From NCBI GenBank assembly GCA_013376995.1, contig JACAAZ010000010.1, positions 62,001 to 126,000 of the forward strand: a stretch of DNA of 64,000 nt, given 5' to 3'. Under the pieces are notes generated by a model that saw nothing but the letters and a program-made list of their open reading frames with translations, searched no databases and had not been told where the DNA came from. The position numbers and the translations under genes were made by a program. Source of the DNA: Bacteroidota bacterium. Lineage in GTDB: Bacteria; Bacteroidota; Bacteroidia; Bacteroidales; UBA4417. Numbering within the stretch: position 1 is the stretch's first letter; every line of letters begins with the position of its first letter. Shown piece after piece: positions 35,408 through 60,007 of this stretch.

Positions 35408-35423
35408 TCCGTCAGCTGACGGA
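35408..35423. repeat. Perfect 16-bp palindrome (TCCGTCAGCTGACGGA)
   Basis: Lies in the spacer upstream of the glycosyltransferase gene, between GTGCTAATGTGTTAAT-like words and TGACAATGCAGTAATGTGC. It shares the central CAGCTG with the palindromes at 54543 and 59992. The same spacer ends in a TCAAATTG word repeat (about 35480-35535). Confidence 0.7.
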
Positions 35424-54068: not shown

Positions 54069-54111
54069 ACTTGATTTATATTGTCGGAGTGACTATAGCG
54101 GCCGGGTGAAT

Positions 54112-54142
54112 AAAAAAAGGCTGCCCATGATGAACAGCCTTT
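54112..54142 (-). terminator. Terminator after the broken tRNA copy A
   Basis: Minus-strand hairpin AAAGGCTG ... CAGCCTTT followed by a run of T. It corresponds to the tRNA-Lys terminator at 54203-54234; where that one has an A-T pair (AGACTG/CAGTCT) this one has G-C (AGGCTG/CAGCCT), a compensatory change. Confidence 0.75.
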
Positions 54143-54147
54143 TGCAG

Positions 54148-54192
54148 TCTCCCCGATCCCGCACATGCGGGATGACTCATTGATTAAGAGTC
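54148..54192 (-). pseudogene. tRNA-Lys fragment A (3' half, T arm replaced by a palindrome)
   Basis: From the anticodon loop GACTCTTAATC through the variable region and the acceptor 3' strand CGGGGAGA it follows the intact tRNA-Lys at 54243-54315. The T arm is replaced by the palindrome ATCCCGCACATGCGGGAT (plus strand, 54156-54173). The 5' half (acceptor 5' strand, D arm) is missing. Its own terminator follows, so this was once a full tRNA plus terminator unit. Confidence 0.75.
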
Positions 54193-54202
54193 GGGGGATA
54201 AA

Positions 54203-54234
54203 GAAAAAAAAGACTGTCCCAATGGAACAGTCTT
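54203..54234 (-). terminator. Terminator of tRNA-Lys
   Basis: Minus-strand hairpin AAGACTGT ... ACAGTCTT (54210-54234) followed by an eight-T run, starting about 8 bp after the tRNA 3' end. Confidence 0.85.
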
Positions 54235-54242
54235 GATTTCAG

Positions 54243-54315
54243 TCTCCCCGATAGGACTCGAACCTATGACCCATTGATTAAGAGTCAATTGCTCTACCAA
54301 CTGAGCTACGGAGAG
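54243..54315 (-). tRNA. tRNA-Lys (anticodon CTT)
   Basis: 73-nt cloverleaf on the minus strand: acceptor stem CTCTCCG/CGGGGAG (one T-G pair), D arm AGCTCAGTTGGTAGAGCA, anticodon arm ATTGA-CTCTTAA-TCAAT with anticodon CTT, variable loop GGGTC and T arm ATAGG-TTCGAGT-CCTAT. Discriminator base A; the 3' CCA is not encoded. It reads AAG lysine codons. It lies between two defective copies, downstream of a Bacteroidota-type promoter that precedes copy B. Confidence 0.96.
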
Positions 54316-54342
54316 GTTATTTTATTCTCTGTGCCTGTGCTG

Positions 54343-54394
54343 TGACCCTCCCGTCATTTATGACGGGATGCTCTACAAACTGAGCTACGGAGAG
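54343..54394 (-). pseudogene. tRNA-Lys fragment B (5' half, anticodon arm replaced by a palindrome)
   Basis: The acceptor 5' strand and D arm (CTCTCCGTAGCTCAGTTTGT, then AGAGCA) match the intact tRNA with one change. The anticodon arm is replaced by the palindrome TCCCGTCATTTATGACGGGA (plus strand, 54349-54368). GGGTCA of the variable region follows and then the homology ends. It stands between the promoter and the intact tRNA, so it should be part of the precursor transcript. Confidence 0.78.
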
Positions 54395-54405
54395 ATTTGG
54401 GAGTG

Positions 54406-54434
54406 CAAAAATAGTAAAAGATTCGAATCTACAA
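54406..54434 (-). promoter_or_regulatory. Promoter of the tRNA-Lys locus
   Basis: Minus strand: TTG (54432-54434), an 18-bp spacer and TATTTTTG (54406-54413), an exact TAnnTTTG -7 box. The predicted start lies just before fragment B. Confidence 0.65.
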
Positions 54435-54542: not shown

Positions 54543-54564
54543 ATCAGTCAGCTGGCTGACGGAT
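54543..54564. repeat. Palindrome GTCAGCTGGCTGAC in a CGCGGAT word repeat
   Basis: The core GTCAGC-TG-GCTGAC (54547-54560) extends outward to ATC/GAT with one mismatch. It interrupts a tract of GGAACGCTGATGACGCGG and CGGATTAACACGG words. Same class as those at 35408 and 59992. Confidence 0.65.
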
Positions 54565-59991: not shown

Positions 59992-60007
59992 TCCGCCAGC
60001 TGGCGGA
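59992..60007. repeat. Perfect 16-bp palindrome (TCCGCCAGCTGGCGGA)
   Basis: Inserted between GAACGCGGA and CGCGGATGATCC in a tract of CGCGGAT-like words, 178 bp upstream of the receptor-operon start codon. Same class as the palindromes at 18250, 35408 and 54543. Confidence 0.7.

Follow-up and report, generated by a model that had tools for sequence, protein, structure and literature searches.

The window, a stretch of 64,000 nucleotides, comes from a genome of 5.05 Mb in 43 contigs (G000) and carries a tRNA-Lys(CTT) gene accompanied by two partial copies of itself, fragments B and A, each with one arm exchanged for a palindrome. On the minus strand, a promoter-like site, fragment B, the intact tRNA-Lys(CTT), a terminator-like hairpin, fragment A and a second terminator-like hairpin follow each other in this order:

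54406..54434, minus strand: promoter-like sequence TTG..TACTATTTTTG, upstream of fragment B, recognised by reading the sequence
54322-54394, minus strand: fragment B as a whole, a copy of the tRNA-Lys 5' half, upstream of the intact gene
54369..54394, minus strand: retained 5' part of tRNA-Lys in fragment B (nt 1-26, with one D-loop change)
54349..54368, minus strand: palindrome TCCCGTCATAAATGACGGGA of fragment B, replacing the 17-nt anticodon arm (nt 27-43)
54316..54348, minus strand: remainder of fragment B (GGGTCACAG of the variable/T region, then non-tRNA-like sequence) and spacer to the intact tRNA
54242..54315, minus strand: intact tRNA-Lys(CTT) (ARAGORN; Rfam, 71.6 bits)
54204..54234, minus strand: terminator-like hairpin and T run, after the intact tRNA-Lys
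54145-54198, minus strand: fragment A as a whole, a copy of the tRNA-Lys 3' half, downstream of the intact gene
54174..54198, minus strand: left part of fragment A, with a new 5' strand TCCCCCG, then the 3' part of the tRNA-Lys anticodon arm and the variable loop
54156..54173, minus strand: palindrome ATCCCGCATGTGCGGGAT of fragment A, replacing the T arm
54145..54155, minus strand: 3' acceptor strand CGGGGAGACTG of fragment A, the same as in the intact gene
54112..54142, minus strand: second terminator-like hairpin, differing from the first by a compensatory base-pair change

The sequence TTG..TACTATTTTTG resembles a promoter of the Bacteroidota type. The arrangement with two arm-swapped partial copies had been proposed in an earlier note on this DNA, and the coordinates, the breakpoints, ARAGORN and Rfam all bear it out. 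In fragment B, nucleotides 1-26 of the tRNA are kept and the match restarts at nucleotide 44, a loss of exactly the 17-nt anticodon arm, and in fragment A the tRNA match runs to nucleotide 50 and, after the palindrome, again from nucleotide 64; the breakpoint alignment of both fragments thus confirms that tRNA sequence lies on the two sides of the lost arm, as had been claimed. Direct reading likewise showed the compensatory change of the second terminator, from AGACTG..CAGTCT to AGGCTG..CAGCCT. Folding, one of the checks that the note had suggested, gave structures better than those of shuffled sequences for both fragments (z -4.9 for B and -3.9 for A). Two further genomes of the genus hold orthologous copies of fragment B (L009, L010), so that the tRNA-Lys locus is not an assembly error; no orthologue of fragment A was seen in those two genomes. 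The comparison with relatives was thus positive, and the positions of the palindromes within the fragments are not random.

The same swap was also found in other tRNA genes, as the earlier note had proposed to look for. In G000, a partial copy on the same strand lay within 500 bp of 15 of the 38 tRNA genes (score of at least 13), against 0-1 of 38 with shuffled tRNAs. This count is firm in G000 and softer in G003 and G005, two genomes of the window genus whose copies were additionally read by eye: at the same score it gave 15 of 44 tRNAs in G003 (shuffled 0-5), where the 44 calls include two palindrome-bearing Leu copies that ARAGORN called tRNAs, and 5 of the 23 tRNAs fetched in G005 (shuffled 0-3). 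At a score of at least 16, the tRNAs with a partial copy numbered 15 in G000, 11 in G003 and 3 in G005, and some copies, such as that of Asn in G000, escape the score cut-off. Copies located upstream retain the 5' part of the tRNA and copies located downstream the 3' part, often with a terminator-like hairpin. Several copies form tandem arrays; in G003, tRNA-Asn is followed by seven units and tRNA-Val(CAC) by six. Some G000 copies lie at scaffold gaps or contig ends; N runs or contig ends coincide with arrays or palindromes in L062, L065, L073, L076 and L078 and at the ends of the G000 contigs C9, C18, C22 and C33, so that draft assemblies may under-count the arrays and lose the tRNA gene itself.

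A common motif of the kind GGACGAGAAGTTTATCCCG-hairpin-CGGGAAGTCC was observed at the former T-loop in the 3' units of several tRNAs (L073, L078, L079 and L092 in G000, L010 in G005 and L170 in G003), and Rfam gave no match to it in the loci searched. The copies were also considered as members of a known RNA family, and an Rfam search of 12 loci with a permissive E-value returned tRNA and matches below the family cut-offs; the conserved GAGAAGTTTATCC motif, taken as a candidate known structured RNA, had no Rfam support in the loci searched.

The exchange sites were then tabulated in three genomes. Among 704 inverted repeats near tRNA genes, 57 had tRNA matches to their left and right, and shuffled tRNAs gave 1. 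By eye, 10 of the 57 turned out to be natural arms that belong to neighbouring tRNAs and 7 to be counted twice, and 40 remained. Palindromes of the TCCCGATAG type account for 23 rows, 16 of them distinct, although some are units of one array and are not independent; every one replaces exactly 3 nt of the D- or T-loop, in the D-loop after gene nt 13 or 14, or nt 21 in the case of Ser, and in the T-loop after nt 58, and the tRNAs concerned are Lys, Val, Leu, Ser, Thr, Met and Asn. In Lys, Arg, Ala and Val, the 17-nt anticodon arm has given way to hairpins of the TCCCG..CGGGA and CCCCG..CGGGG types; values of 13 or 19 nt in the program output were read as differing from 17 by shared outer bases. 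The same anticodon-arm junction occurs in Lys, Val, Ala, Thr and Arg. In the TCTCGTCA.. family 12 nt are lost in Asp, in the TCCGTCTNAGACGGA family 10 nt are lost in Met and Leu, and the TCCGTCAGCTGACGGA family shows a loss of 5 or 6 nt, while the insertion of CCTGCCTGCCGGCAGGCAGG has removed no nucleotide from Arg(CCG), Arg(CCT) and, by eye, Arg(ACG). The exchange is therefore not always arm for arm, as the earlier note had described it: the D- and T-loop cases swap only 3 loop nt and the Arg cases insert without any loss. The note was right that an arm gives way to a palindrome at one and the same place and that a general process involving tRNA hairpins is at work; hairpin for hairpin is not the general rule, given these same D-/T-loop cases and Arg insertions.

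The palindromes are also dispersed away from tRNA genes. In G000, TCCGYCAGCTGRCGGA occurs at 65 sites per strand, against 0 for the control. Exact TCCCGATAGCTATCGGGA sites number 24 in G003, 12 in G005, 10 in G027 and 0 in G013; within about 650 bp of a tRNA gene lie 13 of the 24, 5 of the 12 and 4 of the 10, respectively, and the remaining 24 of the 46 sites of G003, G005 and G027 lie farther away. By eye, the palindromes away from tRNAs are often located in short repeats, and several lie between direct repeats of 4-5 bp. In the window, palindromes of the TCCGYCAGCTGRCGGA kind away from tRNAs are found at 59992-60007, 35408-35423 and 54545-54562; the last is imperfect, and the one at 59992 lies between direct repeats CGCGGA. 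Mobilisation by a RAYT/IS200 transposase was considered and set aside: G000 has four Y1_Tnp loci, and no TCC[CG]..[CG]GGA palindrome was present in their fetched flanks, one of which is cut by a contig end.

Comparison of G003 and G005 over alignable flanks common to both revealed empty and filled sites. The Ala(TGC) locus of the rRNA operon is empty in G003 and holds in G005 a 100-bp insert, which consists of a short spacer plus a complete copy of tRNA-Ala whose anticodon arm is exchanged; Pro(TGG) is also empty in G003 and followed by a 3' copy in G005. Conversely, Arg(ACG) and Asn are empty in G005, and in G003 they are followed by two and seven 3' units that displace the native downstream sequence to +214 and +787, respectively. 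The Leu(TAA) gene directly follows the native upstream sequence in G005; in G003, this sequence ends at -255, and a dead copy with three palindromes of two families comes first, then the intact gene and then a gene for a GIY-YIG nuclease. At Val(TAC), the upstream region including the copy aligns at 82% between G003 and G005.

At least 119 stretches of public genomes contained the anticodon-arm junction AGAGC-ATCCCG..CGGGA-RGGTC. In a sample of 395 genomes of the phylum it was present in 12, and the reversed control in 0. The junction tallies, the analysis of hairpin interiors and the count of ORF proximity given below cover the 80 listed of these at least 119 loci; another step took in all 119 junction loci together with L187-L216. 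Among the 80 listed stretches, 67 are titled Bacteroidota, including Algoriphagus, Aequorivita, Echinicola, Pedobacter, Salegentibacter and many uncultured members, and 13 bear other titles, which include Ignavibacteria, Marinimicrobia and Kiritimatiellae. They hold 104 junctions, among which five (L224, L225, L233, L258 and L259) are by eye probably genuine tRNAs with a 7-nt loop and were kept in the counts. A similar intact tRNA lies within 700 bp of 62 of the 104, upstream of the junction in 34 and downstream in 28; the other 42 have no tRNA on that strand (27) or a dissimilar one (15). The hairpin interiors of the 104 junctions comprise 79 distinct sequences and are self-complementary beyond the fixed bases, with a mean stem extension of 2.17 versus 0.52 after shuffling. 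This diversity within one type of junction, together with the several unrelated families of palindromes, gives no support to a single palindromic element of the rickettsial type that the earlier note had mentioned. Seven viral contigs of IMG/VR (L371-L377) bear the anticodon-arm junction as well, and may be phages or mis-assigned pieces of host DNA.

A small GIY-YIG gene is often located between the intact tRNA and the copy. Using a profile made from examples, we detected 40 GIY-YIG ORFs in the 545 kb of the 80 listed loci, distributed over 32 loci. All 40 are on the strand of the junction and 39 lie within 400 bp of one, though that zone represents 62 of the 545 kb; at the other 48 of the 80 listed junction loci, no GIY-YIG gene was found in the available DNA. 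The spread over the genome and the phylum, the many tandem arrays and the frequent inclusion of a GIY-YIG gene in the units had not been noticed in the earlier note. In at least 6 of 11 translated tRNA-associated genes (L192, L196, L210, L211, L256 and L261) the stop codon falls inside the tRNA copy or the palindrome, so that nuclease gene and tRNA copy form one unit. A GIY-YIG gene near a junction was also seen in L251, L266 and L317. Their records bear the titles Marinimicrobia, Kiritimatiellae and Dojkabacteria, all outside Bacteroidota, and this raises a suspicion of transfer or of a binning error.

The nucleases of the 11 translated tRNA-associated examples are 81-103 aa long. The curated cut-off of PF01541 was exceeded by 10 of 10 nuclease proteins, and none of the catalytic residues Y5, Y16, G18, R27, H31, E63 and K67 varies among the 12 proteins compared. 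In 10 proteins of 81-117 aa only the GIY-YIG domain was found, with no separate DNA-binding domain; weak matches to TIGR01453 or T5orf172 in some of them cover the GIY-YIG stretch itself.

A reverse search, independent of the palindrome, was carried out with a profile of 12 nuclease proteins, 11 of them from tRNA loci, a composition that makes the resulting set of loci lean towards tRNA loci. Of 119 genomes from the order, 57 gave a match to the profile; 29 new loci were examined, 28 of them independent of the query since L378 is the locus of profile row L211. A tRNA gene or tRNA piece was present at 28 of the 29, and an interrupted copy at 24 (23 with a clear palindrome, and L396 with a less regular hairpin insert). 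Four tRNA loci had no palindrome (L388, L389, L393 and L402), and in the single exception among the 29, L406, the nuclease gene lies inside an ORF. The palindrome status was assigned partly by eye (L379, L385, L386, L387, L391, L392, L394, L395, L396, L400 and L405), and the program flagged natural arms in L388, L393, L397 and L401, where other palindromes are present in L397 and L401 and none in L388 and L393. Small GIY-YIG genes seemingly inside ORFs, unlike the tRNA type, were also observed by eye in L193 and L203 (G027), besides L406; those of L193 and L203 have inverted ends of type ACCCYGTGARATA at their borders.

In a tree of 75 domains, built on short sequences and with many forks unresolved, the nucleases group by tRNA, with 20 label changes versus 41.4 after shuffling and 0 of 200 shuffles as low. 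The Lys(TTT) nucleases stand together in 8 of 9 cases with a support of 94, and come from Saprospiraceae, Chitinophagaceae, Cyclobacteriaceae and unplaced genomes, and five nucleases from non-tRNA loci form their own starred clade. Labels were set from the copy sequence in L196, L200, L201, L205, L235, L238, L260 (one of two), L279, L291, L298, L300 and L331; L302, L308, L317 and L321 are unlabelled and eight rows are labelled none. Part of the grouping by tRNA could stem from vertical descent at orthologous loci. The small GIY-YIG genes of L187, L188, L189, L190 and L191 form a clade apart and have other flanking repeats, such as GGTGGCTGAGCGAGG..CGAAGCCACC or GATAAACTCAGGCTGACA; no tRNA was found beside them.

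The anatomy of the copies, the stereotyped exchange sites, the association with a nuclease gene, the empty and filled sites, the conservation of the catalytic residues and the spread through Bacteroidota are all matters of observation. We consider that the copies are probably mobile units anchored on tRNA genes and driven by the nuclease, and that fragments A and B of the window are the remains of such units. A complete unit would consist of a small GIY-YIG gene and a partial copy of the adjacent tRNA gene, with a palindrome in the place of one loop or arm; the 3' type would carry the terminator side and the 5' type the promoter side, and the unit would lie beside the intact tRNA, often in tandem. 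The nuclease may cut the tRNA gene in its arms, and repair between tRNA copies would then duplicate and amplify the unit, in the manner of phage SegB with tRNA-Tyr. By replacing the cut site in the surplus copies, the palindrome would render them uncuttable and unable to give a decoding tRNA, which would leave one intact gene, and units that have lost the nuclease gene would persist as short, often tandem, copies. The window locus, where no GIY-YIG gene was seen, is best read as a relic devoid of the nuclease, in which tRNA-Lys stands between two units. A narrower form of this proposal, in which the minimal nuclease, dedicated to a single tRNA gene, cuts the surplus tRNA copies in their D, anticodon or T arm and a palindromic hairpin seals the break exactly, making them permanently uncuttable and non-decoding, is put forward tentatively, as a possibility we would not bet on.

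Several observations go against tRNA-anchored, nuclease-driven units: the missing nuclease gene at the window locus and at the 48 junction loci mentioned above, the 24 of 46 exact TCCCGATAGCTATCGGGA sites away from tRNA genes, the four profile-found tRNA loci with no palindrome, the irregular hairpin insert of L396 and the gene of L406 inside an ORF. The leaning of the profile towards tRNA loci and the possible share of vertical descent in the tree count against them as well. The lack of a separate DNA-binding domain is, in addition, unusual for a sequence-specific homing enzyme, and the intact tRNAs beside the nuclease gene exhibited no visible recoding or alteration by which they would escape cutting.

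Among the other explanations, a process directed at hairpins, as imagined in the earlier note, would consist of template switching, or of a structure-specific nuclease removing one hairpin with another pasted in. By eye, the left strands of the Gln and Leu 3' units resemble complements of the tRNA 3' end and not the original 5' strand, as expected from fold-back copying. Single-domain GIY-YIG enzymes may be structure-specific, as are SLX1-like proteins. We regard this process as somewhat unlikely, given that the D- and T-loop cases swap loop bases and keep the stem, and that the Arg cases insert without loss. It is unlikely, too, that the copies reflect neutral decay, that is, spare tandem tRNA copies offering a harmless landing place to dispersed REP-like palindromes, with the nuclease as a separate hitch-hiker. 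The dispersal of TCCGYCAGCTGRCGGA in G000 (65 sites per strand, control 0), the short direct repeats around some palindromes outside tRNAs, the three palindromes of two families in the one dead Leu(TAA) copy of G003 and the 48 of 80 listed junction loci with no visible nuclease gene would fit such decay; the positions are nevertheless non-random, with the same anticodon-arm junction in five tRNAs and a constant loss of 3 or 17 nt, the nuclease is associated in 39 of 40 and 28 of 29 cases, and the inner sequences vary from locus to locus yet remain self-complementary (2.17 versus 0.52).

We doubt still more that the copies are functional RNAs, namely structured leader or trailer pieces serving in folding insulation or processing, or free small RNAs. 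Fragment B separates the promoter-like site from the tRNA, both fragments have better folds than their shuffles (z -4.9 for B, -3.9 for A), several other copies re-form the outer stem, such as GCGGATGAA..TTCATCCGC in Leu(TAG), and the 82% alignment upstream of Val(TAC) between G003 and G005 includes the copy; against a function, close relatives have empty tRNA loci, and 4 of 13 folded copies are near their shuffles (Asp -1.1, Asn -1.2, Arg -1.3 and Ala -1.5). Remains of integrase-driven elements that used tRNA genes as attachment sites, to which the direct repeats of the tRNA 3' end downstream could be ascribed, are highly improbable: both the 5' and the 3' halves are duplicated, the units are about 100-400 bp long, and the only gene seen in those read by eye, if any, is that of a GIY-YIG nuclease.

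The probable units, mobile and anchored on tRNA genes, can be compared with several known systems. The rtT repeats of E. coli tyrT are also tandem and located downstream of a tRNA, and start with the tRNA 3' end; they are not known to have arm-replacing palindromes or a nuclease gene. Rickettsial palindromic elements are palindromes inside genes, whereas here several families, fixed tRNA sites and an association with a nuclease are found. The closest precedent is SegB, a free-standing GIY-YIG homing endonuclease of phages T4 and T6, which, according to the accessible part of its description, cuts tRNA-containing DNA and yields tandem repeats of tRNA-Tyr and segB, where the 5' end of the tRNA shares a microhomology with the 3' end of segB (PMC13096335). 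The likeness lies in the GIY-YIG gene beside tRNA genes and in the fusion of the nuclease end with the tRNA copy, which has a geometry similar to that of the SegB microhomology; the differences are the bacterial chromosomes, the single-domain protein, the partial, palindrome-interrupted surplus copies and the many tRNA species. Among SegB-like traits, a gene beside its presumed target is present at 28 of 29 loci, the tRNA being the presumed target, and no separate DNA-binding domain was found in 10 proteins; as to an element allele lacking the cleavable site, the surplus copies are interrupted at 24 of 29 loci and the intact tRNA is not visibly altered.

Short dispersed palindromes are common to our loci and to REP/RAYT systems with GTAG- or CGTC-tagged palindromes, and CGTC repeats are also reported from Bacteroidetes, with no dedicated transposase, in the accessible part of PMC3733652, which mentions rickettsial palindromic elements as well. 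The present palindromes differ by their exchange at a fixed place in tRNA copies, and the fetched flanks of the four Y1 transposase loci of G000 show none of them. Mitochondrial genomes contain repetitive hairpin-forming or mobile short DNA, and in the accessible parts of the two reports no arm-for-arm exchange in duplicated bacterial tRNA genes was seen (PMC4478555, PMC2800124); tRNA gene fragments in prokaryotes are the topic of PMC9897764, judging from its accessible part. In searches of open-licence papers we found no printed description of palindrome-exchanged tRNA copies or of such chromosomal GIY-YIG genes at bacterial tRNA genes, and none of four exact palindrome strings. The dead, arm-swapped tRNA copies tied to a nuclease suggest a selfish element that is anchored on tRNA genes and of a kind not described so far.

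Genes for tRNAs are among the most conserved targets available to a selfish element, and hitting them should be lethal. If the units cut tRNA genes and disarm the surplus copies, this would explain the tRNA remnants and the assembly gaps beside tRNA genes of Bacteroidota, and they would be a cellular counterpart to the recently described amplification of phage SegB and a natural system placing short palindromes with single-base regularity. Should the sealing of cut copies by a hairpin also prove true, a selfish element would duplicate an essential gene and disarm the duplicate with a hairpin exchange chemistry of its own.
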